A DNA stretch of 64,000 bases from Straminergon stramineum. Lineage: Eukaryota > Streptophyta > Bryopsida > Hypnales > Calliergonaceae. A model generated the notes under the pieces. That model ran no database searches and was not told where the DNA came from. It worked only from the letters and a program-made list of their open reading frames with translations. The DNA lies in NCBI GenBank assembly GCA_963920665.1, contig OY987272.1, positions 16,621,001 to 16,685,000 of the forward strand. Reading direction: 5' to 3'. The position numbers and the translations under genes were made by a program. How positions within the stretch are numbered: position 1 is the first letter of the stretch; each line of letters begins with the position of its first letter. Positions 382 to 54,159 of this stretch are shown one piece after another.

Positions 382-958
382 TTAACCCCTAAGTGCTTCG
401 ACATCCATTTTCTGGATGATGAACAGATTGAAACTCCTGTTTCATCCTCCTAACTATTTGGATGAAAGTTATTTTAATTTGTAAAAATACATTATCAAGT
501 TTTTGTCCTATCTAAGGGTTGGATTTGGGGTTACTAGAGCTTATATTTTTCTAAAATTACAAATGTGCAAGTATGTCAAGTGGTCAAACTTCATTGACTT
601 TAGTTCAAAATTGGATTTGCCAAAATGAGGTCATAGGTAGGAAGAACACAAAAATTTCAAAAAATCACCATGTGAAGAGAACCTCATTTCAAATCCATTC
701 CAACAAATTCTACTCAAAAAATTATAATATTTTACTTGCAATTGAATTTGGAAGGAATTTTGAAATTTCTCTTCAGAAATTTATAAAAAAATATTGGTGA
801 TAGCATTGGTGAATCTAACCGTACAAATGGAATCTTCAAATCAAAATCTACAACTTCTATTTGCATTTTAATTCCAAAATATGCTTCCAAATAGTACTTT
901 ATAATGCTTTTTCTCAAATCATCAATTCTGGAGATGAATTTGGACGTATAGGGGTTAA
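382..958. mobile_element. TTAA-ended MITE, family A copy 1
   Basis: A 577-bp element bounded by TTAACCCCTAA at the left and TATAGGGGTTAA at the right. Copies with the same interior lie at 39542-40122 and, interrupted, at 14673-15571. A shared internal landmark is GATGAACAGATTGAAACT near the left end. The TTAA plus CCC/GGG termini are the known hallmark of piggyBac-type insertion. There is no coding capacity, so it is non-autonomous. The family assignment is inference from termini and target site. Confidence 0.8.
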
Positions 959-972
959 GGTCCTCTTTACCC

Positions 973-1217
973 TACACTAAATAGTAAAATTAGGTTGCCT
1001 TAACAATTAGGTTGCCTTACCCCAAGAAAGTTACTTTACAAGCCATCAAAGGGAGTCAACAAATATTTCCATTTGTACACATGAAGGTTCATGAGTCCCA
1101 ATTACAACAATTCCTACTTCAAAAGTAGTACATTCTTGTATAGTAATAGAAAATATTTATATTGTGTCAAATGTCAAGAAATTATAGTGGGGAAACCTAA
1201 TTTCACTAATAAATGTA
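973..1217. mobile_element. Tc1/mariner-like MITE, family K copy 1
   Basis: An inverted-repeat element of about 241 bp between TA dinucleotides at 973-974 and 1216-1217. The left terminus is CACTAAATAGTAAAATTAGG and the right end is a decayed complement of it. The other copies are 35134-35386, 51315-51550 and the shorter 47702-47893. TA target sites with CACT-starting termini fit Tc1/mariner (Stowaway-like) MITEs. It starts 15 bp after the family A element. Confidence 0.72.
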
Positions 1218-1227
1218 GGGGATATAT

Positions 1228-1989
1228 GGGAAATTGCAAGAAACACCTATCCTGTTTTCCGTCAAACATTCAATCTTGAAATTGTTTTGCACCATAAGTA
1301 TTGCAAAAATGATAGAATGAACATGAAATTTAGAAAGAAGCTTCCTGTAGCTATAGAAAATGTACTCAAATTATTTCTATTTTTCCTAAATTAATTCCAT
1401 TGGTGAAATTAAATTTCAAGTATATGTCACATATACAATTTTGGTGGTTTTTAGTACTATCGAGTACCTTTGTTGAAGAGTTATATAGTCAAATTTGGTA
1501 GGCTAGTTCTTCTATTAGAATTACACCTTCGGAAGAGAGGGATTTCCAAAAAAATGTTCCAAATGTGTTTTGCATTGGCCTAAAGTGTGTTATATTTAGG
1601 TTGAATTTGTGTTGAATAAAAAATGTTTTTTTAGTTCTAGATTTGATCTTCCTTCTTTTCTCTTAGTTGGCAACAATGGCTACTTTTAAGATATATTTTT
1701 CAAGTGCATTTTTTAATTTAAAAAAATAGAAATGTGGAAGTCTGATTTTCTAATATAAATTGTAGCTTTTGGCTCAAAATAGTATTTCAAGGTACATAGA
1801 AGGACTCAATAGTACTCGTAGGGGCATATAGTGCTTCTAATCTACGAATGTAAACTATCATTATGGAAAATTAAGCATTGCCATCCATCCTTGCCATCCA
1901 ATGATGAGCATCACATGTAGTACAAAAAGTACTAAAAGGCTGAAAATAAAAAATGCAACAAATAGTACAAGTGTTTCTTGCAATCACCC
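1228..1989. mobile_element. Inverted-repeat element, family H copy 1
   Basis: A 762-bp element with termini GGGAAATTGCAAGAAACAC and GTGTTTCTTGCAATCACCC. A second full copy of 761 bp is at 25988-26748, and a copy split by another insertion is at 17705-18999. The interior has short TAGTACTA palindromes and no usable frame. Flanks show only a possible 4-bp ATAT repeat, so the superfamily is unresolved. Confidence 0.68.
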
Positions 1990-4813: not shown

Positions 4814-5754
4814 TTAGCCCCGAAACTTCCAAGGCAATTTTTTCATTGAAAACCACTCAAAAGTCAAAACTGCCATTTCTATTGTATAGTGCAAAAAATA
4901 TTAGAAGTTTTTTTTTTGCATATCTAAACGTAGGATCTTGCACTAGACTTGTATGAGAATGTGTGGAAGAAATTTCACAAACTTTGACCTTGTGGATTGC
5001 AAAATATTTGTGTTTGAAGTGAAGAAATCTAGATTTTTTGCACCTTGTTTGACCAAAATTTTAAGGATTTGGATCTTCTTAGCTTAAAACTTTTGCAATA
5101 CACATTTTGAATTTCTAATTTTTATGTTGAAGAATTGAGTTGAAAGTCTAGGAATTTCTTTGAAAAAACACACTTGATTTTCATTCTTTGAAAATTATTT
5201 AAGTAGAAGTGGGTACAAGATTGAAGGGTGAACCAAATCATTAATAGGTTTAAGAGGGAATTGAAACACAATAATAACAACAATGAGATTGTTCTAGAAA
5301 GCTAACTAAATGGCATTATGAACTCTCTTTTTGAAAAATTATAAAAATTGCATTCAAAAATGAATTCTTTAAGTTACTTTTTCTAGAAGACTCATGCTTC
5401 GACAGCCCGAAAAACAAGATTGTCCATAACTTTCTCATCCTTGATCCAAATAGAATGAATCAAATCTTTCTTTGTAGACAAAAATAATTTCTAAGAGAAA
5501 CAAAATTTTCATAATTTTATTTTGACTTTTTGTAATTTTTTTGTATTGCCTGTTAAACTCCATTTTAGACTTAGAATGACATAACTTTTGCTCTCAAACA
5601 TGGATTAAAATAAAAATTATATTCCTCAAAAGCTAGCATGTTTTCCTATCTTCAAAATCTGTTTTGAAAAATCACAACAAAAATTGAGAGGAAGAAAGCA
5701 TACCCAAAATCCATTTTGTCCATTCTGAGGGGACAATGAGAATTTAGGAGTTAA
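4814..5754. mobile_element. TTAA-ended element, family C copy 1
   Basis: A 941-bp element starting with a decayed TTAGCCCCGAAACTTCCAAG and ending with TTTAGGAGTTAA. The whole interior aligns with the two outer parts of 10392-12099, for example at AAGATTGTCCATAACTTT and CATAACTTTTGCTC. It serves as the uninterrupted reference showing what was inserted in the other copy. Non-coding. Placed in the TTAA/CCCC superfamily by its ends. Confidence 0.68.
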
Positions 5755-5944: not shown

Positions 5945-6869
5945 TTAACCCCTCACTGCCCAAGGGACTAGAAGTGTCCTTAGGTCAAATTTAAAGTGCT
6001 GAAAAATTTGCCCTCTGTCTTCTAATTTGTGTGGTAAAATTTTCAGATCAATCCAAGATCTACTGAATTTTTGGAATCCAATTGAAGTTCACAAGTTCAA
6101 TTTGAGTTCACCAAATTGCATTTGATGGCTACAACTTTGGGGGCTTGTATCTCCTTCATCCAAAGTTTGTTTTCAATAAAATTTGTTGAATTATGTTAAC
6201 ATTGAAGTCTAGTTATTGTGGTAGAATTTTCATGTCAATCCAAGTTGTTTTGAATGTCTAGGAGCAATTCGAAGTTCAAAATCCCGACATTTTTGGATTA
6301 CAGTGAACTTTGGCAGCTTGTTTCTTCTTCATACAATGTTTGTTTCTAATAACTTTTCTGGAAAAGTTGTGCATACTAGTCTAGTTTGTGTGTATAAATT
6401 TTCATATCAGTCCAAGAAGTTATGAGTGATTGAGAAGCACTTTAGTAGAAGGAGGTTCAGTTTTTGATGGCTTTTTTGCAACTTTTCTTGCTATTTTTTG
6501 ACATTTGAAAGTCATATTGCAGACACAATGAGTCAATTGAATGATATTTTTTTTCATCAATGTATTTGTAAGCTGATTTTGAATCACTTTATAGTTTAAA
6601 GTTTCTTCATTTGAGTATATTTAGAAACCAAATTTTGCCTCCAAATGTATTTTTAGGAAAAATTCAGTATCCTTTTTCAGCACTAAAGCATTATAATCTT
6701 GCAATCCAAGTAGTCAAATGACACCAAATTTGATGCGCATTATCTTCAACAAGTGCACTACAAAATTATACGGTTGAAATCTCTATAACTCAGTGAAAAT
6801 TATATCTATAACATTTCAAAAAAAATGTTGTTTTTGAGCTTGTTCAAACCTTGGGCGGTGAGGGGTTAA
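5945..6869. mobile_element. TTAA-ended element, family B copy 1
   Basis: A 925-bp element with about 21-bp terminal inverted repeats: left TTAACCCCTCACTGCCCAAG, right CTTGGGCGGTGAGGGGTTAA. The interior matches 13701-14676, for example at TTTTCATGTCAATCCAAG and CACAATGAGTCAATTGAATG. It has no transposase. It is the best-preserved pair of ends of the superfamily in this window. Confidence 0.82.
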
Positions 6870-9762: not shown

Positions 9763-10739
9763 CTAGTGTGCTCTGTGTTGTTGCCACAACCATCTGGATG
9801 TCAAAAGTGATGGCTAAGGTGCTAAGCCTTCTTTAATAAACTCCTTAAGTAAAACTAAAAGTAATTTTCTAATTTTTTTGATTAAAAAAATCCTTTGAAA
9901 TTCAATAACTTTCACACCATAGGTCAAAAGGCCACAAAACAAAGCCCTTGCACCCCTTCTCACATAGTATTTTTGATGGTTCTAAGTACATAACCGAGGG
10001 ATGCACGTCTTGGAGATATCACTCTAACAAACAAATAAATCAAACAAAACAAACAACCTATCTTAAGGTATGGACTAGTGTGCCCGGTGCCATTGCCACA
10101 ACCTAAATGAAAGTAAAAGTGCTTTTCTAATTCTTTAATCCATAAAAACTTCAAAATTCAATAACTCTTACATGATCATAGTTCCAAATGCTACAAAACA
10201 AAGCCCATGAATTTCTCCTTGTAGGAAGCTTTCCAATGGTACTAAGAATGTAACTAGGGTATGCATAGTCCAAAAGATCTTACCATAACAAACAAAACAA
10301 AACAAATAGAACAAACTTCACATAAGGTATAGATAGTGTCTTGTCTGCCATTGCTATGGTTGTAATAAAAATAAAAGCCATTTTCAATATTTTAACCCTT
10401 AAAGTCCCAAGGCCATTTTTCTATGAAAACCACTTGAAACTACTAGTTCTACTCCATCCACCCAAGGAAACAAAAGAAGCGTTTCTTTATAGAATCTAAC
10501 CATAGGATCTTGGACTTCATTGGTCTCACCTAATGTGGTAAAAATTTCATGAAGTTTGACAATACAAATTGGAATATATAAGGATTCCAAGTTGGAAATT
10601 TTTTTTGAATGTTGGCATGCAATTTTAAATGACTTTGATTGCCATTTGAGGAAAAATTTTGCTCAAAAAAATTTGAATTTTAAATTTTAAAGTCAAAGAC
10701 AAAAAATGCAAAAAAACATACACTTGATTCTCATTCTTG

Positions 10740-11281
10740 AAACCCTAAATACTGACCAATTCTCCTTTGAACGGATAACAAAATATCCAAGTAGGGTTTA
10801 AACTTTAAAGTCCATTTTGGTTTGATGTCGAAATTTTGACACAAAGTGTAACATGTCCCTCCTTCTAGTAGGAATATAATTTTTTTTTCCAATTAAGTGC
10901 TTGGATAAAAAATTATGTTACCCCTCCTTTACTTTTTGAAATTTGACAGGTATGTAACTTACATGATACAAGATGCAAATGTGAAAAAAAATAACCATGT
11001 ATAGTGTAAAATTCTCATTCTAAGAGGAGTTAAAGTCTGTTGGCCCTATTGGGTAAGGTCTAAAAAAAACTTTTTCTTCTAACTTCAAAAATTATAATCT
11101 TTCAATCCATGTAGTTAAAGTTTCTGAATTTTTTTCACACATTCACAGTTTCACACAATAGTCTAGTACAAATTTGTATGGTTGAATTCTGGAAAAAAAA
11201 TTATTTTTTTCTTACTACCCACCCAAATGGTAGTCTTTGACAATTTCTGCCCCAAATAAGCCTCCAACCTTTAGGGGTTAA
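10740..11281. mobile_element. TTAA-ended element, family E, nested in family C
   Basis: The right end is AACCTTTAGGGGTTAA at 11266-11281. The last 360 bp are the reverse complement of 17030-17400, including AGTCTAGTACAAATTTGTA and GACTACCATTTGGG-type sequence. The left boundary is uncertain: either near 10917, at TTACCCCTCC, or near 10740, where similarity to the uninterrupted family C copy stops. Confidence 0.6.
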
Positions 11282-11627
11282 AAATTTGTTATGTAAAACT
11301 AGGTCCCAAATTTAAAGAAAAACTAAATCATTCATAGCTCTAAGATGGTATTAAAACACTATAATCCCAATGGTGATATTGTTTATTTGTTTTAGTAGAA
11401 AACTTAACCTTGTCAAACAAGTTTTTTTGTAAAATTGTGAAATTGCATTTAGAAATGAATTCTACAAGTTATTTTTTCTAGAAGATGCTTTGATCGATTG
11501 AAAAATAAGATTGTCCATAACTTTTAGATGAAAAGTCCAAATGGAATAAATCAAAGTTTCCCATATATATAAAATTACAATCTATGAGAAAAATATTCAT
11601 TTTTTTTCATGTTTTTGTGTGTGAGGT

Positions 11628-11898
11628 GGGTTCTACATGAAGGTTGCTATTATGTGAGCATAAGAGTATGAGCCCACGAGCCTAAAATACTATACACCTA
11701 TATAATAGGTGTATATACTATAGAAACCATCTATAATTATAGGATATATATGTTACAAATACCCATATTATAGGTGTTTATGATGCATAGACCTTCTATA
11801 GTGTGTGGTATCTATATTATAGGTACCTATATTTTAGGATGAATGCTCACAAGCTCACATTTTTGGGCTCACATACTAGCATTGTTGGGTTCTACATG
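11628..11898. mobile_element. 247-bp Mutator-like MITE D copy 1, nested
   Basis: The body 11640-11886 lies between identical 12-bp direct repeats GGGTTCTACATG (11628-11639 and 11887-11898). The ends carry inverted repeats with GCTATTATGTGAGC at the left and GCTCACATACTAGC at the right. An inverted copy of exactly the same length is at 48222-48468. Long target duplications with terminal repeats suggest Mutator-like elements, whose usual duplication is 9-11 bp. It lies inside a family C element. Confidence 0.83.
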
Positions 11899-12360
11899 CC
11901 ACACCTAAAAAAAGGACTTTAGGTGCCATAACTTTTGCTCCCAAGCACCAATTAAAATATAGATTATATTTTTAGAATGATAGTGTGTTTTTCTATCTTT
12001 ACAAAAAGTTTTAAAAAATCATGATGAATATTGAGACTGTAGGAGCTTCCTCGAATTCCATTGTGTCTTCCAAGGGGCCAATGGGATTTTAGGGGTTAAT
12101 TCAAGAAAACTTTGAAATTCAATAATTCTCACAATGTAGGTCCATATGCCACAAAACAAAGACAATACACCCTTCCTTGCATAGAACTTTCGAACAATAC
12201 CAAGCATGCAACCAAGGAATGTACGGCTCTAGAAATTTTATTGTTACAAACAAAACAAAACAACATAATTTAATGTTTGAATAGTACAATGCTCTTAAAA
12301 TGTTTCATTTGTTTACAAAAAAATGCCATAGCTAATTTAGGAATTAGAAATTTAAGAAAA

Positions 12361-13700: not shown

Positions 13701-14676
13701 TTAACCTCTAAACGGCCCAGGGGACCAAAAGTGTCCTCACATAGTTTCAAGTCCAATTCAAACTATTGTAACTTTTGCATCCGATGTCCAAATTCAATAA
13801 AATTTGTTGGAAAAGTTGCGCTCTCTTTTCTAGTTTGTGTGGTAAAAGTTTCAGATCAATGAAAGATGAAATGATTTTTTGGAAGCCAATCGAAGTTCAC
13901 AAGTTCTATTTGAGTTCACCAAACTGCATTTGATGGCTTCAACTTCGGGGACTTGTGTCTCCTTCATCAAATGTTTGTTTTCAATAAAATTTGTTGTATT
14001 TTGTTCCCCTTGAAGTCTATTTATTGTAGTAGACTTTTCATGTCAATCCAAGATGTTTTGAATGTTTGGAAGCAATTCAAAATTCAAAATCCCAACATTT
14101 TTATATTATAGTGAGCTTCAGTGGCTTGTTTCTTCTTCATTCAATGTCCATTCCCAATTTTTTTTTGGGAAAGTTGCACATACTAGTCTAGTTTGTGTGT
14201 CTAAAATTTCATTTCAATCCAACAAGTTATGAGGAACTAAGAAGCATTTTAGTAGAAGGAGGTTGAGGTTTTGATGTGATTTTTGCAACTTTTCTTGCTA
14301 TTTTTTGACATTTCAAAGCTAATTTGCAAACACAATGAGTCAATTGAATGATATTTTTTTTCACCAATGTGTTTGTACAATGGTTTTAAATTACTTTATA
14401 GCTTAAAATTTTTTCATTTGAGTAGGTTTAGAAATCGAATTTTACCTCCAAATGTGTTACTAGGAAAATTTCAACAGCCTTTTTTAACACTAAAACATTA
14501 TAATCTTGCAATCTATGTGGCCAAATGACTCCAAATTTGATTCATATCATCTACAACATGTACACTACAAGATTGTATGGTTGAGATTTCTATACATAAG
14601 TGGCATTTTGATCTATAACACTTCAAAAGCAATGATGTCTTTAGACCCCCCAAAACCTTGGGCTTTTAGGGGTTAA
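13701..14676. mobile_element. TTAA-ended element, family B copy 2
   Basis: A 976-bp element from TTAACCTCTAAACGGCCCAG to CTTGGGCTTTTAGGGGTTAA, aligned end to end with 5945-6869. The final TTAA (14673-14676) is also the first base set of the neighbouring family A copy, so the two elements abut on one shared TTAA. Confidence 0.8.
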
Positions 14677-15571
14677 TCCCTAGGAGCATCCCCACCCATC
14701 TTGCAAAACTAATGAACTTGTTAAGAGGCCAAGCCAAAAGCCTTGGGTGGCTTGCAAAATGGGGGGATTTTGCAAGCCAAAGAGTGGCTTGCAAACCGGC
14801 TTGCAAACTGTATGAGATAAGAGCACTAGCACTTTCCCCCAAAGCACACACCTTTAGTGTTGTAGCCCATTGGATGGACCTTGCAAAGTGGTCCAAATTT
14901 GGGAACTTATAGCATTCTGTGGGTGGGGCAATTTGGCTTGCAAATTGGATGGCCCTGCATTTTGCAAAATGGGTGGTGATGCTCTAAGCGCTCCGATGTC
15001 CATTTTATGGACAATGAACAAATTGAAACTAAAGTTTCATCCTCGTAATTGCTTGGGTGAAAGTTATTTTAATTTATGGAGATACTTTATCAAGTTGTTG
15101 TCCTATCTAACAGTTAGATTTCATGTTACTGAAGTACACTATGTTTCTAAAATTACAGATGTGCAAGTGTGTCAAGTGGTTGATGGAGCCAAAATTGCAT
15201 TGACTTTAGTTCATAATTGGATTTGACAAAAGTCACAAAACAAGGTCATAGATTTTAAGAACACAAAAATTTCAAAAAATCACCATGTCAAGAAAACTTC
15301 ATTCCAAATCCATTCCAACAAATTTTACTCCAAAAATGATAACATTTTGCTTGTAATTGAATTCAAAAGGAATTTAGAAATTTTCCTTTCAAAAAATTCA
15401 TAATTTTTTTGGTTATAGTGTTGTTGAATCTAACCATACATATGGAATCTACAATTCCTAGTCTACAACTTTTAATTGAAATCACTTCCAAAATATGCTT
15501 CCAAATAGCACTTATAAAGATTCTTTTCAAATTGCCAATTATGGAGATGAAGCTAGACAATTAGGGGTCAA
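14673..15571. mobile_element. TTAA-ended MITE, family A copy 2, split by insertion
   Basis: Begins TTAATCCCTA at the TTAA shared with family B and resumes at 14985 with TAAGCGCTCCGATGTCC. It ends ACAATTAGGGGTCAA (a decayed TTAA). Apart from the 301-bp insert it aligns with 382-958 and 39542-40122, including TCAAAAAATCACCATGT and ACCATACATATGGAATCTAC. Order of events: the A element was present before the MITE at 14684-14984 inserted. Confidence 0.76.
14681..14987. mobile_element. Tourist/Harbinger-like MITE G
   Basis: A 301-bp body (14684-14984) with inverted termini GAGCATCCCCACCCATCTTG and its near-complement CAAAATGGGTGGTGATGCTC. The flanking trinucleotides are TAG and TAA, close to the TWA target duplication known for PIF/Harbinger. 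GAGCATC-type ends are also common in plant members. The interior has several GGCTTGCAAA repeats. It interrupts the left end of a family A element. Confidence 0.76.
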
Positions 15572-17029: not shown

Positions 17030-17400
17030 TTAACCCCTAAAGGACCAATGCACGTTTGGGTAGAAATTGTCAAAAACTACCACTTTGTACGGCAACAAGA
17101 AAAAAATGGAAAAAAAGTTTTTTTTTCAAAATTCAATTGTACAAATTTATACTAGACTTCCTTGGGAACATGTGGAAATTTTTTTAGAAAATTGGAATGC
17201 ACGGATTGCAAGATTATAACATTTGAAATTAGGTGAAAAAGTTTTTCTCTAACCTTACCTGACACGGCTTGCAAACTTTAACTCCTTTTAGAATGAGATT
17301 CTTACACTAAACATGGTTATTTTTTTTGACATATTGTAATCTAAAATTTTGCCTTTCTCAACAAAACCCAAGACTATAGTATAGATGTATAGGGGTTCAA
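17030..17400. mobile_element. TTAA-ended element, family E copy 1
   Basis: Begins TTAACCCCTAAAGGACCAAT. The likely end is ATAGGGGTTCAA at 17390-17400, one base away from a TTAA end. The first 300 bp are the reverse complement of the nested element ending at 11281. It contains the ATTGCAAGATTATAACATTT module found in inverted or related form in families B, C and F. Confidence 0.65.
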
Positions 17401-21039: not shown

Positions 21040-21466
21040 CAAAAATTCTTCAAAAATTCTTACTTTGTTTAAAAAATGAACTTCTGAATGCTTCCTTCAT
21101 TTCTAACATTTTTCTTTGCATGGAAAAAAATCTAAATTATTTTGCTAATGGAAATATGACAAACCGCTCATTAAGCATGTCATAGGTAGGTTTACCTTAT
21201 ATACCCACCAAATTTCAAAATCATAGGAAGAGTTTTGCACATGCTCCCCAAAGTTGCCTGAGCTACCCACAAAGTTCAAGGCAACATAACTTTTGATTTG
21301 GGCACTTGAATGACTTGATTGGAAAAAAAATTAGATTTTCAGGAAGGGATACAGAGTTACACATTTTGTCCAAATTTCACGAACATCCAACCAAAAATGA
21401 CTTTGTAGGAACCTACCCAGGATTTCTTGTATATGTTGAATGGACACTTGGTCCTTCAGGGGTTAA
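21040..21466. mobile_element. Partial TTAA-ended element
   Basis: The right terminus is clear: CTTGGTCCTTCAGGGGTTAA, ending at 21466. It matches the ends of families F and E. Upstream there is the CATAACTTTTGATTTGGGCA-type region seen in family C and F copies. No matching left terminus was found, so the left limit is arbitrary and the element is probably truncated or decayed. Confidence 0.5.
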
Positions 21467-23464: not shown

Positions 23465-24039
23465 TTAGGGAGATGACTCCTTGTAATTTTGAAAATACAC
23501 CTAAGTTAAGAGAGTATTTGAAGTGGGGCTATTTACCTTCATTATTGCATTTACGATGATTATATTTTTACATAAAAATCTATAAGGGTGTATTTTCAAT
23601 CCCCTATGTTTTTTTCAAAATTCATTCTTGTAGTCTTTTAAGTGAGGCTATCTTACATACAAAAATTAAGTGTCCAATTTTTTCCTTTAGCCACCCTTCT
23701 TTACAAATTTTTTCTTCCCTCTACTATATGCATATATAGGGTATACGTCGTAAAACCAATAACAATCAATTCACTTCAAGCGCCATTGAGTAAGTGACAA
23801 TTTAATAAAAAGTTTAAAAAAATTTAAAATCTCCACTAAAACTATCTTGCGAACATCCCATTCAAGATAAGTGTGTTTAGAAAATATGACCTCAAAGATT
23901 GAAGTTCAATGAACTATAAACTCTATCCTTGTATTGTACAAATTTTAGGTCATTGAATCCACTAAAGTAAACCTCCCTATTTGTGCAATGTGACAATTTC
24001 TGCCAATTATGGTTAATTTCTTGCATTTATACTTTCTTT

Positions 24040-24093
<54 letters not shown>

Positions 24094-24417
24094 GTGGCAC
24101 AATTTCAATCAACTATCCTTCATAGTAGATTTTATTGATTATGTCCATTTTATCATCTACAAGAAATTATCTATCCTTACCTATATTCACGGTACTATGA
24201 AAAATTTGCACCGCCCCTATCTATTAAGGCTAACTTATTAATGAAAATTCTACTACATGATGTTTTTATTAATCTAATTTTTACATGTTAGAGTATGAGG
24301 AATTTCATGGACCCTGTATTAGTCCTACATATTATAGAAAAAAATTCATTTGAATTAAATGGGCCCTATCTTTTAACTCGCGCAGTTTTCTAAAAACTCA
24401 AGAAAGATTTTTCTAGG
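23465..24417 (+). mobile_element. Mutator-like element R copy 1
   Basis: About 953 bp, the inverted counterpart of 33765-34707. The left end TTAGGGAGATGACTCCTTGT matches the outer end of the other copy. The right end is more decayed (CTCAAGAAAGATTTTTCTAGG). The flanks AGATAACTC and AGGTAATTT agree at 6 of 9 bases. The interior has TTTACATGTTAGAGTATGAG-type blocks shared with copy 2 and a long AT microsatellite. Confidence 0.65.
24043..24090. repeat. (AT)24 microsatellite
   Basis: An uninterrupted AT dinucleotide run inside the Mutator-like element R copy 1. Copy 2 lacks a comparable run, so the expansion came after the insertion. Confidence 0.95.
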
Positions 24418-24866: not shown

Positions 24867-25799
24867 TAAACCCCTAAAATTCCTTGACTATGTTATCACC
24901 AAAAACTCTCAAAATTGCCATTTCTAATACAAGTACCAAATTTTTGAAAAATATCATTTGGGGACACATGTAACCCTTAGGATCTTGTAGGAAGCTAGAT
25001 TGAGAAGATGTTGGAAAAATTTCAGAAATTTCCACTGTGTAGATTGCAAGATATTAGCATTTGAAGTGACAAAAATCCTTTTCTTTGGCCCTAAGAATAA
25101 CCACACAACTACACTTCACAAAGTCACATTTGTAAGAAAAAATGTCCAAAATTCTGGTTCTTCTTTAGATTCATTCTTCAAGGCAAGTTGGCTACATGCT
25201 TGAAAATTTTCAGATCATTTGGAATTGTGTAATATATAGGAAAAAAATAGGAAGTAGAATGATGTAGAGAATGATTGAAAATACTAAATTGTTATCAATT
25301 TATTAATGGAATTGAAAAATCCCAATCCCAATGGTGGTAATGTTTTAATAAACAATCTACATCTAATGTTTTTATTTTTTTCAAAATTTTTTCAAAATTA
25401 AGTTAAAAAAAGGACTTCAAAGTTTGTTTTAGAGTAGAGAATCCATACTTGCCCGCAAACTAAAACATCTCATAACCTTTGATTCACTAATTAGAATGGA
25501 ACGATTCAAAGCTTTCCATGTATATATAAATCTAGAAAACTAGTTTCAAATTTTAATTTTGAAAAAGGTATTTTTGAAGATTTGCTTGAATTGCCCGAGT
25601 TGAGAAACAAACTACATATTAGGCCATAACTTTTGACTCCTATTTCCAAATGTCCTCAAATTTAGTGCACATGAAAGATATTCCTCATGTACACCTTCTC
25701 TTTAAAGTTTTGGCCAAAGACATGGAAATCTCTAGTGACAAGTACCTGCCCAAAATTTCTATGTTGCCAAAAAAATCACCTTGGTCCTTTAGGGGTTAA
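24867..25799. mobile_element. TTAA-ended element, family F copy 1
   Basis: About 933 bp. The left end is a slightly altered TTAAACCCCTAAAATTCC; the right end is TTGGTCCTTTAGGGGTTAA. It is the reverse complement of 53207-54159 along its length, sharing ATTTCAGAAATTTCCAC, GATTGCAAGATATTAGCATT and CATAACTTTTGACTCC-like blocks. Non-coding member of the TTAA/CCCC superfamily. Confidence 0.77.
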
Positions 25800-31858: not shown

Positions 31859-33335
31859 TTTCCCCTAATGTTTTGGATTTTGAAGAGCAAGCTTGGAAAC
31901 ATTATGGGTTTTGAGTGATCCTACTTTGAGATCTAGAGGAATAGTCTAAATACTCAAAAACAATCATGATGTATTATAAAGTGCATATTGGAAGGAGGAT
32001 TCAATTATAACCTTCAAAAAGAGGTTGTAAATATGATTCATGAATTACATCCATACAACTAAATCTACCATTATACAAACCATATTTATCAATAAAATTG
32101 AAAAAAAAAAATGAATATTCCACGTAAAATTGAGTGTTGATTGAGTATCAATAATTTGAATATTCTTATGACATCCAATGCATTTTATAACACACCTTCA
32201 CATTCTAGTTTATTTGTCCTCCATTCCTAGGATCAACGATCTTTTTCACTAGATCCACTCCAAAAATGCTTGAAAATTGAGAATTTAATGTAAGTAGCAA
32301 GGTGACTTTCTATTGGTGTTTTAACACAACTCCCAAAGTCAATTTTAAGCCATACAAGACAATTGTATCTCAAACAAACAACCAGTTGAATAGTCTAAAG
32401 AGGTTCCTATCAATCAAGCACCATATGCAAGGTAGGAGACAAATCCATAAAGCGCTTAAGCTCTAAAAAAATCCACCTCTTGAAATGTACACTATGTTTA
32501 CATTTTGATTTCTCATTGTACCAACAAAGTACAAATAGTGTACATTTCAAAAGGTGAACTCTTATTGTGACTATTGTGTTTCAACTTCAAAAATTCACAA
32601 CTAATTCCACACAACATCCAAAAATATGAAATGACTTATATTAGATGCCAATTCCTTTTGCCTTTCAAGGATAAGTCACTGGAAAATATTTCAAGAAGTT
32701 TCACCTCCCCAAATTAATGTTCATCTCTTAGGGTGTGCTTACATGCAGGTCCGGTGGGCAGCTTTCTACCCAATCCAAGCAATAGGACAAAACAGGCTCA
32801 ACCAATTGTCTTGCTTGGGTGGGTAAACAAGAAAGGAGGAATAGAAGTTTCACCAATATGAGTTGGGAACCTCATTGGTGGAAACTAGACAACCTTGAGG
32901 GAATCCAATATGTGTGGATTTCTTATTGTATCCCTTCCCACGCATTGGGTCCACATGAAAGTGCAATTGCTATTTTCACTTGTAGCACTACCTGTGAAGT
33001 TTCCCTGATGACCAATACATGTAAGAAGGCCCTTAAATGGAAGGCTTTTTGAACCTCTGCTACCTTCATCCAATGATTGGAAAAAACGGTGTCTAGTTCA
33101 AAGTTAGCTGGTGGATTTGGGAAAAAAAACGATTGCATTTTGAAATTAAAGGATGCTAAACCGGGAAGAAATTTTTAGAATTGGAAATCAACCAGTGCCA
33201 CTCAAAATTTGAAGGATATTTGATCACTTCCTCAAAACATGTAGGGGTGTTCTAGTTGCCTTGCCAAAAAAATTATTGGCTAATACCCAGCTAATGAAGG
33301 TCTAGTACCACTGGATATCAACCTCCACTTTCAAG
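31859..33335. other. Probable decayed upstream part of a hAT transposon
   Basis: No intact frame is seen. Frames at 32819-33052 and around 33250-33330 run in the direction of the hAT remnant that follows, but they carry no motif I recognise. The assignment rests only on position. Confidence 0.25.
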
Positions 33336-33659
33336 TTGCAAGGAAATACAGAGTGGATGGATAGAACTTTTGGAGATATATGGGCTCCAATTAGTTGGAG
33401 TCCATCTTTGAAATTAAAATACCCTAACCTACTAACTCTTATTGAAATTGCTAAGTGTCAATGTATGAGCACTGCAACATGTGAAAGGGCATTTTCAATG
33501 CATAATAACATCAAGCAAAAACTTTGAAATCATATGACAACATCCAATTTGGATAGTGTCATGCAATTGGCCTTGAAAGGACCTAGCAAAGACTATGACA
33601 ACATAATAGAAGGGGCTATTGTCTTGTGGAAGAATTCTTCTAAGTTTCACCATTTATAA
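33336..33659 (+). pseudogene. hAT transposase C-terminal (dimerisation) domain remnant
   Basis: A frame starting at 33336 reads YPNLLTLIEIAKCQCMST, then ATCERAFSMHNNIKQKL, then an in-frame TGA at 33525-33527. It continues in the same frame as NHMTTSNLDSVMQLALKGPS and ends at TAA 33657-33659. The pattern of a Tyr-Pro start, a Ser/Thr-Ala-x-Cys-Glu-Arg core and an IK-x-K-L turn followed by a LD-x-L-M-like stretch is characteristic of the hAT C-terminal dimerisation domain (family knowledge). Upstream catalytic parts are not recognisable, and the internal stop makes it a pseudogene. It could supply the ancestry of the hAT-like MITEs L, but their ends cannot be linked to it. Confidence 0.72.
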
Positions 33660-33754: not shown

Positions 33755-34717
33755 TTTCATAACCCGGGGAGATTACTCTTGAGTTTTAAAAAACTACATG
33801 AGTTAAAAGGATAGGGTCCATTTAATTCAAAGGGGGAAAAATTTAGATAATATATAGGGCTACTATAGGGTCGATGAAATTCTACATACTCTAATATATA
33901 TAAATTAGGCTACATAAAAACATCATGTAGTAGGAATTTTTATTAATAAGCTAGCCTAAACAAATAGGGCTATGAAAATTTTTCATAGTACTAGGAATAT
34001 AGATAAGGACAAATAATTTCATGTGGATGATAAAATAGACACAATCAAGAAAAACTGCAAGAATGAAGTGTGGTTGACAAAAATTGCGCCACAATACTAA
34101 TAGCTTATATATCCAAAAAAGTAAGTGCAAATGTAAAACATTGACTACAAATGGCAAAAATTGTCACATTGTACAAATAGTGAGGTCTACCTTAGTGGAT
34201 TCAATGCCCCGAAAACCATACAATACAATGATAGAGTTTATAATTCAATTAACTTCAATCTTTGAAGTTGTATGTATTAAACACACTCAATCATATTAAA
34301 TGGGATATTCACGAGTAATTCAATAGGGATTCTAAAGTATTCAACGGTAAATTTGTTATTAAAAACAATCACTTGGTCAACGACACTTGAATTGAATTCA
34401 TTGTTGTTGGTTTCATAGTGTATCCGTAGTCTATATATGCATGTAGTGGAAGTAAGCAATTTTTTTGTAAAGATGGGTAGTTTTAGGAAAAATTTGGACA
34501 CTTAAATATTCTATGTAAGATAGCTCCATTTTAAAAACTGAATGAATGAATTTACAAAAAAACATAGGGTATTGTTAATACTCTCTCGTAGCTTTTTATG
34601 TAAAAATATGGTCATCTTAAATGCAATAATGAAGGTAAATACCCCCACATCAAATACCCTCTTAACACATGTGTATACATTAAATTACAAGGAGTGATCT
34701 CCCTAGGTTTCATGACC
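33755..34717 (-). mobile_element. Mutator-like element R copy 2
   Basis: The body 33765-34707 (943 bp) lies between TTTCATAACC and TTTCATGACC, matching at 9 of 10 bases. Ends are GGGGAGATTACTCTTGAG and, on the other strand, TAGGGAGATCACTCCTTG. It is inverted relative to 23465-24417. The TAGGGAGATCACT start resembles the ends of MITE I at 18199-18782. A 9-10 bp duplication suggests a Mutator-like origin. Non-coding. Confidence 0.72.
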
Positions 34718-39499: not shown

Positions 39500-40905
39500 T
39501 GATTCAATTAGTGCAAGCCCACCCTTTCACTAATCCATACTTTAACCCCTAAGCACTCCAACATCTATTTTGTGGATGATGAACAGATTGAAACTAAAGT
39601 TTCATCTTCTTAACTACGTGGATGAAAGCTATTTGAATTTGTGGAGATACGTTGTGAAGTTATTGTCCTATCTAAGGGTTGGATTAGATGTTACTTACTA
39701 GAGTACATATTTTTCTAAAATTACGAATGTGCAAGTATGTCAAGTGGTCAAATTGCATTGACTTTAGTTCAAAATTGGATTTGCCAAAATGAGGTCATAG
39801 ATTTAAAGAACACAAAAATTTCAAAAAATCACCATGTGAAGAGAAGCTCATTTCAAATCCATTACAACAAATTTTACTGAAAAAATGATAATATTTTACT
39901 TGTAATTGAATTTTAAAGGAATTTTGGAATTTCTCTTCCAAAATTTATAAAAAAAGATTGGTGATAGCATTGCTGAATCTAATCGTACAGATAGAATCTA
40001 CTAATCAAAATTTACAACTTTTCTTTGTATATCAATTCCAAAATATGTTTCCAAATAGCACTTCACAATGATTTTTCTATAATCGTTAGTCTTGGAGATG
40101 AATCTAGACGTTTAGGAGTTAAGTTAGGCTATTTGTTTTGTATTATTTACAATTTGTTTGTTATGATGAGATCTCTAAGACCCTACATCCCCCAATGGTG
40201 TTTTTGGTACAATGGGAAAGCCCTTGGCAAGGAGGGGTGCATGGGGTTTGTTTTGTGGTGTTTGCATGTACAGTGGAAGAGTTATGGATTTTTGAGTTAT
40301 TTTTTAATCTTAAATTATCCTAAATTATAAATCTTTTGGACTATGCATCTCCTAGTTGCATTTTTAGTACTATTAGAAAATTCTTTGTCAAGAGGGTTGT
40401 ATGGACTTTGTTTTGTGGTATTTGGACATATAATATGGAAATTATAGATTTTGGAGTTACTTTTTAATCTTCAATTATCTTAAATTGTGGATCTTTTCTT
40501 CATTTCTTTATCATGTCCCTCTTGCTTTTTGTTTATTTTGCTTTGTAACAGAGTTCTTTTTTATTTTTTCTTATACTTTAATTAAATTTTATTTTGTAAT
40601 ATGTTTTAATAATCTTTTATTTTGTACTACATTTTACTTTGTCCATACCTTAAATTAGGATGTTTTGTTTTGTTTAATTTGTTTGTTACTGTCGAAAACG
40701 TTCATCACCTGGTCATGTTTTTTGTAATGATGGAAAGCTCTTTGCGAGGAGGACTAGAAGGCTTTGTTTGTGGTGTTCCAACACACGATAAAAAAGATAT
40801 TGAATTTAATTTTTTTTTATGAATTAAAAAATTAGAAAATTACTTTTACTTTTATTTTATAATACTGTGGCAATGGCACATAGCACACTAGTAGTTGGAT
40901 GAAAT
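39500..40905 (-). repeat. Tandem repeat array, family P copy 2 (inverted, interrupted)
   Basis: Inverted copies of the repeat at 9763-12290. A short first piece ends CACTAATCCATAC at about 39540. After the family A element the array continues at 40123 and runs through three divergent units to CACACTAGTAG near 40895. Each unit has TTTGTTTTGTGGT-type and TTTGTTTGTTA-type blocks. The break by 39542-40122 lies exactly at a TTAA that is single at 10063-10066. Confidence 0.7.
39542..40122. mobile_element. TTAA-ended MITE, family A copy 3
   Basis: 581 bp from TTAACCCCTAAGCACTCC to ACGTTTAGGAGTTAA, aligned throughout with 382-958. It is inserted in a family P unit. Removing it and one TTAA restores the order CCATAC-TTAA-G-TAGGCT, matching CCATACCTTAAGATAGGT in the complement of 10050-10072. 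This supports a TTAA target duplication. Confidence 0.85.
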
Positions 40906-42228: not shown

Positions 42229-42371
42229 GATTAGTACCCTCGCTGGCAGTGTTGATCAATTCGATCCCAAACAGAAGTAAGTTACAAGCTCCTTGCTGAA
42301 CACGGGAATCATTCCAATTATTGCACAAGGACGGAAGCGCTGGGTTTGACTAGCTGTGGAAATCGCGAGTT

Positions 42372-44608
42372 ATGGGGAACTCTGGGATGCTGTTCTGGTG
42401 CTGTCTACTGGCTCTCCAGAGTCTCTTCCAGTTGACGTCGGCACAACTGCCGAACTGCTCGTATCCGGCTGTTTACGCGTTCGGGGACTCGCTCTCCGAC
42501 ACGGAGAACTCCATTGCTGCGTTTCCGGAGAAGTTCGCCTATGCGGAACAAGACCCGAATGGCGAGGAGTTCCCCATGCACGCCGCGGATCGGTACACCG
42601 ACGGAAAGCTCGTCGTCGACTTCCTGGGTAAGCTCGTCGATCTAGCTCCTCCTTCCACTGGAATGAAAGAGTGGCTGGTTCATGCGATGCTTGTCAACGA
42701 GCTTTGGCTCGCTGTCGATCGATCGATTTGCGCTTGAAATTCTGTGAAGCTGGGTTTGTATGATATTCGATACTTATATTGGTGTTTGCATGGTATTTAA
42801 CTTGCGCGACTAGCCGAAATCTTGGTTAATTCGAAGTTTTTGAGCTGAATTTCGAGGTCATGAGCGAAATTTGAAGTCGATGCACTAAACTTGTGTGCGT
42901 ACTCGAAGTCTTGTGTCGTTTTAATCAGTGCTTCGGAAATTGGAACTTGGAGGGCGTTGAATTGCGAATCAAAATTTTGATCGATGTTGTTGTTGAGGTG
43001 CACGTAGTTTGGGATTGCTTACCTCCTGATTGGAGACGGAACGTGAACGGGTTACAGCTGTGATCGATCCTGCTGAATTACCGAAATCTGGTTTTGAGGT
43101 TGAATTTTGAGACTGAGGTGGTGAAATTTGGGATTGATAGAGTGAGCTGATTTGATGCATGTCCGCAACGTTTGGCGTGAGCTAGAAGGCGGCCGATCTA
43201 TCCCGTGCTGAGAGGCACTGGTGGCGATTTTACGTACGGCACCAACTTCGCGGCTTGCGGCGCACCGGCGCGAAAGGTAAAAGTGTGGATCAACGATGAC
43301 AAGTTCAACGTGCCGTTCTCTCTGGATGTGCAGCAGCAGTGGTATGAGCGCTACAAAGTCCGAGTATGGTTCTACGAGAGCCCCACGGCTGTAAGTGCAT
43401 TACTTCCACAGTACTCTACAGCTAGTACTCCCCTGCTTTGAACTGAAACGCCGGCCGCCATTCCCAAGCTGACTTGGAAAGATTATTCGCTGAATTGCTG
43501 AACTTTGAATTGGTTTCGCAGTACTGGTGCAGATCTTGCCGACATTGGCCTCCGTGAACGAGTCGTTGTTCGTGGTGTGGTCTGGATACCAGGACTACTT
43601 CTTCAGTCTCTACGACTAGGCCCTATCTCCTTCCAAGACGAAGAAAATCGTCCCGGATGTCGTGGCAGCCATTGAGAAGTTCCTTGCGGTGAGCTCGTCA
43701 TGCACTTCATGTTCGGTAACAGAGCTCAATTTCTATAAACTCTTGCTAGATTGCGTGGAGTCCCTTCTTTACAATGATTTGGCAGAAGAGGACCGGTTTG
43801 GCCTAATTGGTGTGACTATTCCTGGTGGCGTCGCAGAAATTGTTGACACCCGTCGTATACACACCACCCAGATTCCCCTCACTAGTCATGCCCACGGCTT
43901 CGACGGTGATGGTGGTGAATCTGCCTCCCTTGGGTTGCATCCCCGCCATGCTCACCTTGGACGGCGGCCCCAATGAAGACTACGACGATCACGGTTGCTT
44001 AAAGAAACTCAACAAAATCACCCGCAGTCACAACACGCTGCTGGGTGAGAAGGTGTCTGCCTTGCGAACCAAGTACCCTGAGGTCACGGTGGTGTATGCA
44101 GACGCCGAGAGCGTGTACTTCGGCATCCTGAAGTCCCCCTCGACCTACAGTAAGCATCCCTTCCCCAGTTGCTCCAACCCAAGAATCCTGGAGCCATGAA
44201 TTTAGGATCCTTGAATTCAAAAGATTTGTATATTGTCGTAATAAACAAATTCTCAAGGTTTTTGGATTAGGTATTGGGCACTGCAAGAGTTGCTAATGGA
44301 TTTGACTGGTTGCAGACGTGACGTTGCCGTTGAAGGCGTGCTGCGGCGTGGGCGGCGACTACAATTTCAATACGGGAGTCACTTATGGCCACGCCGGCAC
44401 AGTGGACGGCAAATTCGTGAACCTGACAATGACTCTGTCGTTGACGCCTTGCCCGAATCCCGCGGGTCATCTGATCTGGGACGGCATCCACACGTCCAAC
44501 ACCTTCAACAAGGCGGCCGTCCCGGCGTTTCTTACTGGCCTGCACGTCACTCCTGCGGGCGGTCTGAACTGCTCCCCAGATTTCACCTTCTGGAATTCCA
44601 GGTTTTAG
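42372..44608 (+). pseudogene. GDSL-type esterase/lipase, five exons, probably disrupted
   Basis: An SGNH/GDSL-family hydrolase, expected to be a secreted ester hydrolase. Likely exons: 42372-42627, about 43187-43390, 43533-43688, about 43837-44149 and 44316-44608. Exon 1 encodes a signal peptide (cleavage near LTSA|Q, residue 24), then the GDSL block YAFGDSLSD with nucleophile Ser at about residue 40. Exon 2 has the Gly block GTNFAACGAPA. Exon 3 has WSGYQDYFF, where many relatives have GxND. Exon 4 has VVNLPPLGCIPAM. Exon 5 has the catalytic WDGIHTS and ends DFTFWNSRF. The total is about 405 codons, normal for the family. Donors GTAAG at 42628, 43391 and 44150 are clear, and the last junction restores Asn. 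Problems: TAG at 43617-43619 in exon 3 frame, with good frame on both sides; exon 1 and the exon 2 acceptor at 43184-43185 disagree in phase; exon 4 has extra sequence at its start. A diverged but expressed gene with unusual splicing is the alternative. Confidence 0.78.
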
Positions 44609-44647
44609 GATTGGGAAATGATTGGTGCTCTTTCGCTTAATAGAATT

Positions 44648-46815: not shown

Positions 46816-47045
46816 TTAACCCCTAAACGACGCAGCAGACGTTTTTTGTCCGATGAATGACAAGGAATTTTCCCTTGTAGGATAGAATTGCAACTATTCA
46901 TCCTTGAAATTATGGGTGAAAAGGGAAGATCTTATACAGTAATTTGACTCCCAATGTGTATTTTTTATTTTTTTAAAGATGATGATGTCACACAGTTCTA
47001 AAATGGCTGATTTCCACGGTCACCATCCCAATGTTCAAGGGTTAA
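46816..47045. mobile_element. Short TTAA-ended MITE
   Basis: 230 bp from TTAACCCCTAAACGACGCAG to CCCAATGTTCAAGGGTTAA. The ends agree for about 12 bases. The interior differs from families A-F. It is the smallest convincing member of the TTAA/CCCC superfamily and lies 2.2 kb downstream of the GDSL locus. Confidence 0.65.
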
Positions 47046-47082
47046 CTTAGTGAGTGTGGATCCACCTAACATAATCTCAATG

Positions 47083-50700: not shown

Positions 50701-50855
50701 CTTATCTTAACTTCCAAACCAACTCTTTTGACCCTGAAAATTGCCTGGAAAGCAAGTGCAAGCTGACAGACGGAGTGACCTCAAGTACAAGAATTTGAAA
50801 CATCACTGCTCCACAGAAAATGCATGAAAAGGTTGGCAAGTACTCCATATAACTT

Positions 50856-50984: not shown

Positions 50985-51006
50985 ACTTAATATTGAAGCT
51001 GCTACT

Positions 51007-51266
51007 CATGGATGAGGGCCGGGGTGGATTGACCCCCTCACTCATCCCCAAGGGAAAATCCTGAAATTTTTTATTTGTCACGCAATATAACATTTACAAA
51101 TTTTGAATTCATATTTGCAATCAGAGGCCCTGAGTTTGCAGCAAGCAAGGGGTACAGAAGATAAATTAATGAAGCACAAAATAGGGAGGCTTTCTTTTAC
51201 ATGCACCCTTGGATTGACTTAGGGGGGACAAGTGAGGGGGTCAATCCTCCCCAGCCATGCATGAGC
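51007..51266. mobile_element. Inverted-repeat element Y copy 2
   Basis: About 260 bp with roughly 40-bp inverted ends: left GGGGTGGATTGACCCCCTCA, right TGAGGGGGTCAATCCTCCCC, within CTCATGGATG and CATGCATGAG outer parts. The core matches Y copy 1. No coding sequence. Confidence 0.62.
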
Positions 51267-51314
51267 CAGTGGGCCATCTCATGTCCTGAAATTTGTCTGT
51301 GCATGGTGGTAAGC

Positions 51315-51550
51315 TACACTGAATAGTGAAATTAGGTTGCCTTACCCCAAGAAAGTTACTTTACAAGCCATCAAAGTCAACAAATATTTCTAAAAATATT
51401 TCCATTCGTACACATGGAGATTCCTAAGTTCCAAATATAGCGATATGAAATTCAAAAGTAGTTCATTCTTGTATAGTAACTGTAAATATTTATTTTGTGT
51501 CAAATGTCGAGAAATTAGTGAGGGGCAACCTAATTTCACTATTTAGTGTA
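51315..51550. mobile_element. Tc1/mariner-like MITE, family K copy 3
   Basis: 232 bp between TA at 51315-51316 and 51549-51550. Ends are CACTGAATAGTGAAATTAGG and CCTAATTTCACTATTTAGTG. The interior aligns with 35136-35384. It is a well-kept copy with intact terminal repeats. Confidence 0.84.
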
Positions 51551-52069
51551 GATAGATTTATACAAGTAAACTCAGTGGCATTTTCAGCCTACATCTTTTG
51601 AAATATTTTAGAAAAAGGATTTTGACTTTTGCATTGCATGATTTGGATACAATGAACATGGAGTTTATGGTGTGACTCGGCTTTTTGCCATTCTTTTCAC
51701 ATGTTATTCAGTGGTTCTCCATGGTAATTCAGTTGTTGCCTAGGCTTAGTCATTTAAATCGGTAAAAAATCTAATTTTTTTTGGCATTTCTGTCATTTTC
51801 CATAAATTTGCAAAACCAATCAGTTAAAAAATCAAAAAATCAAATACAACTCAATTTAAATACTAGGTTGAAGGCAATTCATCAATTCAAGGCAATTTAT
51901 TTGCACACTACCATACTTGGATAGCAAGTTCGGTTTAAATTATTTTTTTTAAAGTTTTGAATTCTTCTACAAATTCTAGGACTAGATATGTGAATCTATA
52001 AATATATGTAAATATGATTGGTCGGAAATCCAAAGAATTCAATAATAGTCCATTGAGTCAAATATCAAT

Positions 52070-52240
52070 CTATCATTTGACCATCTACTATCAAAAAAAA
52101 TTTTATGGAAAAATGAAGGAATTACTTCATTGACATTTAGTGAGTGAAGAGTGGAGAGGTTATATTTATAATGAAATTTATAGTCCATCATGAATCCTCA
52201 TAGGGTATGGCACAATTTGAAGAAGAGAGCTTTGACCACT
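52070..52240 (+). repeat. Interspersed repeat X copy 1
   Basis: About 170 bp similar to 58650-58822: GAAGGAATTACTTCATTGAC, then ATTTAGTGAG, GTGGAGAGG, ATCATGAATCCTC and TTTGAAGAAGAGAG. Non-coding. Class unknown. Confidence 0.55.
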
Positions 52241-52242
52241 TG

Positions 52243-52641
52243 TTGTCAAAAACACAGGAATTGTATTCAAAGCTGAATTTCAGACTTGATTTAGACATAG
52301 TACAATATTTGTTTTCAAAAAACTTTGAACTAAGTTAATGTGATAGATACAGTTAAATTTCATCTCCAAAAATCCGTTTGTGATTTTGAGAATCCAAGAA
52401 AAATTTATGAATAAAATTCAAAGAGGATGTTTGAAATTGTCAAAGAAAATGTCCCTTTTAACCCCTCTAAATTTTGTCCATAACTTTTTCTTGGAGTCTT
52501 AAAATCTCACACAGATTTTTGGAGATGAAATTTAGCTTGATTTTTCACATATATCTAGTTCAAAATCTTTTTAAAAGAAAAATTATACTATGTCTAAATG
52601 AGGTCTGAAATTTTACTTTGAACACGATTCTTGCTTATGAC
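52243..52641. mobile_element. Fold-back element of about 400 bp
   Basis: Inverted arms: left near 52255-52305 with AATTTCAGACTTGATTTAGA then CATAGTACAA; right near 52583-52630 with TTATACTATG then TCTAAATGAGGTCTGAAATT. Pairing extends inwards through the GTTCAAAGT-type and GAGATGAAATTTA regions. The centre holds TTAACCCCTC at 52458-52467, which may be coincidence. Confidence 0.5.
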
Positions 52642-53206
52642 TTAAATATAAGTGATTGAATTTCAACTAATCCTATTGATTTACATATCCCACATGGGTT
52701 GTTTTACCTACTACTACCACACTTCTATAAAGAGTTTGTCTTTACAGCCTTAGATACTTATTATTGAAAGTACCTACAACAACGGATGGTAGCTCTTGGA
52801 TACCTTTTATTCATTTAGAATTGAATATTGCCTTTTCACTAGGGCTATCCATATAGGAACCGATAGGAGCTTCTGTATGGCAAATGAAATTCGATTGTAC
52901 TTGATAGAGAAGGGATGTAAAACCGTCATTTATATTTCAAAAACGGTTCATTTCCTGTACACCTAATTTTTTATTCGGATATACGACCTAAAATTCTGAA
53001 ACTAAGACGGTAATTTGATGATTTTATTCGGCTGATTTTCTATTAAATGACGGATCTCACCATTCATTGTTTTGACATCTCCAATGATAAACAAGGAGCC
53101 CAAATCTTCGCTATTATACTTTATATAATGAATTTTGACTACGGTAGTCTACTCTAACTCCACCCCTCTTCTTTAGACCATCCCTAGCCAGGGTCTGAAA
53201 TGGACA

Positions 53207-54159
53207 TTAACCCCTAAAGGACCAAATGGTGTTTTTTGGCAACATAGCGATTTCGGGCTGCTCACTATGGATGGAATTTTGATTTTTTTTCTTTGAAATT
53301 TTCACACAACATTTTCCCAAGGAGTAGCTTTAAGACTGAACAATTTTCATAACTTTTGAATACATGGTTAAAAAGTTATTGTATAATATGTTGTTTTCAT
53401 TGCTTGGCGGGCAGCCCGGGCAGCAAAAAAAACTTCTTGAAAAATCACTTTTTTTTAAAATAAAAATTTGAAATTAGTTTTCTACATTTATATATACATG
53501 AAAAGATTTGAATCATTCCATTTTGATTTGTGAGACGAAAGTTATGAAGAGTTTTAGTTGTGGGTAGTTTGTGGGTAGTAATGGAATCTCTACTCTCAAA
53601 TAAACTTTGAAGACCTTTACTTCACTCAATTTTTAATATTTTTGGAAAAAAATAAAAACTGGAGGTGTAGATTGTTTATTACAATATTACAACCATTGGG
53701 ATTGGCATTTTTCAATTCCATAAATAAATTATTTACACTTTAGTATTTTGAATCATTCTCTACTTCTTTCAACTTACTATTTTTTTCCTATATGTTGTAC
53801 AATTCCAAATGATCCAAAAAATTTCAAGAATGTAGCCAACATGACTTGAAGAATGAATCCAAAGAGTTACAACCATTTTGGACATTTTTTCATAATGATT
53901 TGACCTTGTGGAGTGCATCTGCCCGGATTTTTGCAGGGCCAAAAAATGGCTTTTTGTCACTTCAAATGCTAATAACTTGAAATCCAAACGGTGGAAATTT
54001 CTGAAATATTTTTCACATCTTCCCAAACTAGATTACTACAAGATCCTATGGTTACATTTGTTCAAAAATTTATTTTTTCTAAAATTTGGTACTTGTATTG
54101 GAGATGACAGTTTTGGAGTGTTTTTAGTGAAAACATAGTCAAAAACCTTTAGGGGTTAA
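53207..54159. mobile_element. TTAA-ended element, family F copy 2 (inverted)
   Basis: 953 bp from TTAACCCCTAAAGGACCAAA to AAACCTTTAGGGGTTAA, both ends intact. It is the reverse complement of 24867-25799. It contains the sub-terminal AATGCTAATAACTTGAAATC and CAAGATCCTATGGTTA module. It is the cleanest family F copy. Confidence 0.82.

Follow-up and report, generated by a model that had tools for sequence, protein, structure and literature searches.

The 64,000-nucleotide stretch of the Straminergon stramineum genome analysed here (assembly GCA_963920665.1, contig OY987272.1, positions 16,621,001 to 16,685,000 of the forward strand; hereafter the window, numbered from its first base) contains no fewer than ten short mobile DNA elements whose inverted ends are of the TTAACCCCTAA type. 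Insertion at, and duplication of, a single TTAA is directly visible in two of the copies, 10392-12099 and 39542-40122. The elements are short DNA transposons that inserted at TTAA and were probably mobilised in trans by a predicted piggyBac-type transposase encoded elsewhere in the genome. The inverted ends, the TTAA target, the CCC at the ends, the nesting, and bodies of 0.4-1 kb, which are too short for a transposase, mean that these are non-autonomous cut-and-paste elements.

Ends and copies in the window

When TTAACCCCTAA was searched on both strands with at most one mismatch, 22 occurrences were found in the window against an expectation of 1.92; no shuffle out of 100 gave as many. With up to two mismatches the excess shrinks: 48 occurrences were found, compared with a mean of 27.3 and a maximum of 39 in 30 simulations. 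Because of this small excess, paralogous copies were relied on, and not the end motif alone. Nine pairs of ends (at most one mismatch, 150-2000 bp apart) face inward, whereas such pairs averaged 0.03 in 60 Markov simulations and never numbered more than one. Two of the nine pairs (10392-11281 and 13701-15571) are cross-combinations between neighbouring elements.

A preliminary description, made by reading the sequence alone, had listed 11 intervals and claimed at least ten TTAA-bounded elements with inverted ends. This is confirmed, and on stronger grounds than that reading could offer: in addition to the excess of ends, a paralogue backs both ends in nine of the 11 elements (three in family A and two each in B, C, and D). 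The other two (E, 17030-17400, and F, 46816-47045) are weaker. Their right ends carry two mismatches and are unproven, because chance alone is expected to produce roughly 0.38 minus-strand ends with up to two mismatches per 1,850 bp. The 11 intervals span 9,090 of the 64,000 bp (about 14%), of which approximately 620 bp belongs to two foreign insertions; the idea of a major genome-shaping family fits this window, which is also its scope.

In families A, B, and D, homology between copies halts at the TTAA, as seen both in self-comparison and in the family alignments. The copy alignments reach the TTAA within one or two bases and never run past it; the exception is the left side of the third A copy (14673-15571). 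Two lone TTAACCC ends, at 4062 and 38265 on the reverse strand, had no recognisable partner or paralogue in the window and were excluded from the elements. A scan of the IMG/VR viral contigs for two end patterns gave no matches for either.

The elements are as follows. Head denotes a subterminal sequence of about 200 bp that B, C, D, and E/N share, and the held-out E value is that obtained when the family in question was omitted from the head alignment.

382-958, forward strand: family A, 577 bp, TTAA at both ends; 86% identity to 39542-40122 over the whole length
39542-40122, forward strand: family A, 581 bp, within a tandem repeat unit of about 255 bp; unoccupied site at 10063-10066
14673-15571, forward strand: family A; 79% identity to 382-958 from 14984 onward
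14673-14676, no strand: shared TTAA, right end of the B copy 13701-14676 and left end of the A copy 14673-15571
5945-6869, reverse strand: family B, 925 bp; 83% identity to 13701-14676; head at the right end (held-out E 4.9e-8)
13701-14676, reverse strand: family B, 976 bp; head at the right end (held-out E 1.7e-6)
4814-5754, forward strand: family C, 941 bp, left tetramer TTAG; head (held-out E 3.8e-26)
10392-12099, forward strand: family C, with two later insertions inside (10737-11281 and about 11607-11923); unoccupied site at 10135-10138
10737-11281, reverse strand: nested element N, within C 10392-12099; TTGA on the left, TTAA on the right; right side is a head (held-out E 2.1e-17)
24867-25799, forward strand: family D, 933 bp, left tetramer TAAA; 77% identity to reversed 53207-54159; head (held-out E 1.2e-17)
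53207-54159, reverse strand: family D, 953 bp; homologous to 24867-25799; head (held-out E 7.9e-20)
17030-17400, forward strand: element E, 371 bp; left end backed by head homology (held-out E 6.7e-14), right end unproven
46816-47045, no strand: candidate F, 230 bp; exact left end, right end with two mismatches unproven

The three A copies share 79-86% identity with one another. BLAST homology of 14673-15571 begins only at 14984, yet the left coordinate given in the preliminary description is correct: read by eye, the left end is TTAATCCCTA, followed just inside it by a foreign inverted-repeat element of about 300 bp (about 14683-14983) and then by the remaining A sequence. The right tetramer of this copy, read from outside inward, is TTGA. 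The foreign element has inverted ends GAGCATCnCCACCCATnTTGCAAAA and possibly a CTA or TA duplication. One TTAA is common to this A copy and to B 13701-14676, as insertion of one into the flanking TTAA of the other would give.

Inside the TTAA, the inverted ends match over 17 bases with one mismatch in B 5945-6869, over 8-10 bases in D, and over seven bases in A 382-958. The two C copies align end to end when the nested element is set aside. In element E, the two-mismatch right end was scored at 17399. Candidate F is present as a single copy, with no paralogue in the window.

Unoccupied target sites

The C copy 10392-12099 sits in a tandem unit of about 255 bp; when its two flanks are joined around one TTAA, they align across the neighbouring unit. 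The A copy 39542-40122 lies in a related tandem unit, at a TTAA different from that used by 10392-12099. The two unoccupied sites are:

10135-10138, forward strand: unoccupied TTAA for 10392-12099, ranked first of 988 TTAA sites
10063-10066, reverse strand: unoccupied TTAA for 39542-40122, ranked first of 990 TTAA sites

These ranks come from a control that compared both flanks of an element with each TTAA site on either strand of the window and ordered the sites by the score of the weaker flank. For 10392-12099, with 100 bases per side, the site at 10135 scored 79; the next score, 59, belongs to the paralogous unit at 40824 on the reverse strand. For 39542-40122, with 60 bases per side, the site at 10063 scored 42 and 86, and the next site 32. 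In an ungapped comparison, 23 of 28 flank bases of 39542-40122 match at 10063, and any other TTAA gives 17 at most. The ungapped test also places the site at 10135 first for 10392-12099 with 18 bases (23/36) and 24 bases (32/48) per side. The TTAA target proposed in the preliminary description is therefore borne out by the single TTAA of these two sites.

It should be mentioned that the repeated unit of about 255 bp (9846-10391 and 40119-40860) was hit by two independent TTAA insertions. A candidate unoccupied site for B 5945-6869, at 22452 on the forward strand, scored 41 and 43 (next 36) and did not appear in the ungapped test. The site of the nested element N is unoccupied in C 4814-5754: TTGA is found at 5188-5191, the same as the left flank of N.

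The end motif might also be a chance or telomere-like (CCCTAAA) sequence and not a transposon end, as CCCCTAA resembles the plant telomere repeat. This possibility seems negligible: it is contradicted by the 22 ends against 1.9 expected, their inverted pairing, the stop of homology at them, and the unoccupied sites.

Relatedness of the interiors and their surroundings

The interiors were compared after removal of the terminal 21 bases. In local comparison, C was co-linearly similar to D, D to E, E to N, and B to N. In a leave-one-family-out test of an alignment of nine heads, in which each family was omitted in turn, all nine held-out heads were recovered with E values from 1.7e-6 to 3.8e-26, and the best unrelated match across the four held-out runs had an E value of 0.026. 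Scoring the nine heads with the model built from them is circular, and those scores were not used. The head contains an inverted motif pair, with TAnnATCTTGnA matching in six of the nine heads and GATT[G/T]nAA in seven; this pair is a putative binding site.

By these comparisons, C and D are one element of approximately 930 bp. A joint C+D model of 923 positions matches N at 1-340 (E 1.2e-17) and element E at 1-285 (E 4.5e-15). E and N share 76% identity across 290 aligned columns. The other end of N, its left side, matches the model weakly (E 0.41); the same end matches the element at 21466, which itself corresponds to model positions 706-923. N is likely a shortened form, and both shorter forms, N and E, may have arisen by internal deletion. 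N was overlooked in the preliminary description, as were three partial copies:

54313-54530, reverse strand: partial copy consisting of a C-type head, with end TAAA; C+D model E 2.8e-26, head held-out E 1.7e-14
21252-21466, forward strand: partial copy G, from the tail of a C/D-type element; C+D model 706-923, E 1.1e-9
63242-63535, reverse strand: tail of another C/D-type copy, toward the end of the window; C+D model 628-921 at 63251-63535, E 1.8e-14

The body of B beyond the head gave no convincing match to C/D. Comparison of A and F with the C/D lineage gave nothing significant with the C+D model and only short marginal matches in local comparison. A, with three copies, and F are tied to the rest by their ends only. 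The earlier count of six or more different interiors was thus overstated, since B, C, D, and E share the head and C and D are one element.

The window has a GC content of 33.5% and many repeats, and three of its open reading frames (ORFs) reach 130 amino acids. Twenty ORFs, chosen among 171 of at least 60 amino acids, were scanned against Pfam. The matches over the curated cut-off were a GDSL lipase and a hAT dimerisation fragment, neither of them within a TTAA element. The former is an exon at 43816-44196 (PF00657, E 1.5e-7) within an interrupted gene at 42354-44605, the sole host gene identified in the ORFs scanned; neighbouring ORFs look GDSL-like by eye, although singly they have no Pfam match. 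The latter is a C-terminal dimerisation fragment of a hAT transposase at 33306-33524 (PF05699, E 1.1e-5). Taken with the low GC content, the scarcity of long ORFs, and the many repeats, the two matches are suggestive of plant DNA. Rfam gave no match in the window at gathering scores.

Other repeats are also present. The second insertion in C 10392-12099 (11607-11923) and the segment 48190-48495 carry a 250-bp repeat with 90% identity in reversed orientation. It is bordered at each place by direct repeats some 11-13 bp long (TGGGTTCTACATG; GATTTCAGACC), which suggests a Mutator-like short element. The segments 23466-24403 and 33777-34705 form an inverted repeat pair of about 930 bp with 75% identity, outside the named families. 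The segment 52255-52633 is a 379-bp near-palindrome (77% self-complementary), possibly a foldback element.

Assignment to a transposon superfamily

The end sequences were counted in 12 two-ended elements, 24 ends in all. E and F, with their unproven right ends, are among them, and the TTAA at 14673 is counted twice. The tetramer is exactly TTAA at 19 of the 24 ends and differs by one base at the other five; T is its first base at all 24. The bases next to the tetramer are CCC at 18 ends and CCCC at 16. CC[C/T]T is found at two ends and RR at one, the degenerate left end of N.

These counts can be compared with published descriptions. In general, piggyBac elements duplicate TTAA and have CC[C/T]T ends and terminal inverted repeats (TIRs) of 12-19 bp (PMC2872659), and CCC forms the first three bases in many or most of them (PMC10813416). 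The elements in the window agree with this in target and duplication, seen in the two single-TTAA unoccupied sites and the 19 exact tetramers, and in the CCC at 18 of 24 ends. They also resemble piggyBac and its miniature inverted-repeat transposable elements (MITEs), such as the coral CMITEs (PMC2872659), in their inverted ends, in the presence of short derivatives, and in that elements adjoin or nest in one another at TTAA. The differences from piggyBac are that the fourth inner base is usually C, which is why CC[C/T]T is rare, and that some inverted ends are 7-10 bases long; the 17 bases of B 5945-6869 lie within the 12-19-bp range. In contrast to the CMITEs, the elements are mostly 370-980 bp long and not about 100 bp, and share a head of about 200 bp where the CMITEs have a conserved internal region of 75 bases (PMC2872659). 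Furthermore, the host is a plant.

Several observations weigh against a piggyBac-type assignment or against the TTAA duplication on which it is built. CC[C/T]T is present at only two of 24 ends, and in D and A the inverted ends fall short of the customary 12-19 bp. A motif that includes TTAA was used to find most of the ends, so that their TTAA count is favoured by selection, and duplication of TTAA yields the same sequence as duplication of TA within an obligatory TTAA. The unoccupied site of N reads TTGA and not TTAA, which is consistent but inexact. With 14 bases per side, the ungapped test fails to decide for 10392-12099: its site scores 18, the same as self-matches, and other sites give 16 at most. 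Eight other flank tests (A 382, B 5945, C 4814, D 24867, D 53207, E 17030, F 46816, and the block of B 13701 and A 14673) gave no convincing unoccupied site, and their weaker-side scores reach 41 with 60 bases per side, close to the 42 of 39542-40122. As a result, this flank is not decisive alone, and the weight lies on the opposite flank (86) together with the ungapped match. Finally, no transposase was found among the 20 ORFs scanned with Pfam, one of which lies inside an element (53772-54032); a piggyBac transposase has about 500 residues or more (PMC10813416).

The elements work like piggyBac but were not filed as members of it, because CC[C/T]T occurs at two of 24 ends only and no transposase was found. 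The piggyBac label, already used in the preliminary description, is a best guess and unproven; its target and CCC ends hold, and its fourth base does not.

The scarcity of CC[C/T]T, set against the rule in PMC2872659, would fit a different plant superfamily that is TTAA-specific or undescribed (of the Sola3 type or new), in which the piggyBac-like target and CCC ends are convergent. Sola elements are DNA transposons recorded in land plants; a table of these includes them for Physcomitrella (Sola1) and pepper and omits piggyBac (PMC9033089). Such an origin nevertheless seems fairly unlikely, since TTAA followed by CCC, found at 18 of 24 ends, is the piggyBac pattern (PMC10813416). As general background, Sola elements make 4-bp duplications, and Sola3 is TTAA-specific.

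A Stowaway-like Tc1/mariner element with a TA duplication and a preference for TTAA, in which the A before CCCC is the first base of the element, would leave the same letters: T-TA-A(CCCC...GGGG)T-TA-A is identical to TTAA(CCCC...GGGG)TTAA, and the unoccupied sites fail to separate the two. A plain TA target does not need the T that begins all 24 tetramers, though the ends were mostly found by the TTAA-bearing motif. The ends of Stowaway elements are CTCCCTCC and differ from those in the window. This reading is very unlikely. The plant Tourist (PIF/Harbinger) and Stowaway MITEs are likewise short and non-autonomous with inverted ends, but have TAA/TTA and TA duplications, respectively (PMC10004981), whereas TTAA is symmetric at both ends here. 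A 3-bp TAA/TTA duplication of the PIF/Harbinger kind was also not seen at the unoccupied sites, which have a single TTAA.

Kolobok-type elements, which occur in chlorophytes and rhodophytes, are another described TTAA-specific superfamily with 4-bp duplications and 5'-RR ends (PMC9587614). In Xenopus, Kolobok and the T2-MITEs share the TTAA-specific duplication and the non-autonomous derivatives with the elements in the window; the Kolobok ends there are AG or AGGRR (PMC9587614, PMC6004289). The terminal bases contradict this assignment, being mostly CCC here with RR at one of 24 ends, and it is extremely improbable.

The papers disagree on piggyBac in plants. PiggyBac is one of seven angiosperm MITE superfamilies in a 2023 review (PMC10004981), is included in the list of plant class II superfamilies in a 2024 review (PMC10794571), and is described as isolated from insects, fungi, and plants (PMC10813416). 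A 2022 review of land plants gives six TIR superfamilies, and piggyBac is absent from these in its available text (PMC9033089). In a fern annotation, 1,230 copies totalling 122 kb carry the label PiggyBac (PMC6890710), which is a trace and a label only. The preliminary description, which regarded these elements as unfamiliar in plants, is therefore only partly right on this point. Among the literature matches listed, no paper was recognisable by its title or abstract as describing these plant elements; the available texts of the bald cypress and peanut MITE papers (PMC3228858, PMC9277781) and of PMC8232201 contain nothing on such TTAA elements.

In the favoured piggyBac-type reading, the mobilising transposase is predicted to have the piggyBac fold and to be encoded elsewhere in the genome. 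It would bind the inverted ends, 8-17 bases inside the TTAA in the copies read, and perhaps the head too; it would then excise the element and join it to staggered cuts at TTAA. Cleavage by piggyBac leaves a 4-nt TTAA overhang that permits seamless repair (PMC7351741), and excision of the elements in the window might be seamless as well.

It is possible, although somewhat doubtful, that a TTAA-specific transposase lineage outside the six land-plant TIR superfamilies of one review has long been active in this genome. Such a lineage would have moved at least two sequence-unrelated lineages, the head-bearing elements of about 930 bp and the 580-bp A elements, amounting to about 14% of the region, and the CCCCT ends would be the hallmark of a separate piggyBac branch in plants or of a new relative.

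If TTAA-specific elements are abundant in a plant, a matching transposase must once have been present in its genome. Finding this transposase would decide whether piggyBac or something similar is native to land plants, could supply plant genome engineering with a native TTAA system, and would suggest that elements of this kind go under-recorded where annotation leans on known plant superfamilies.

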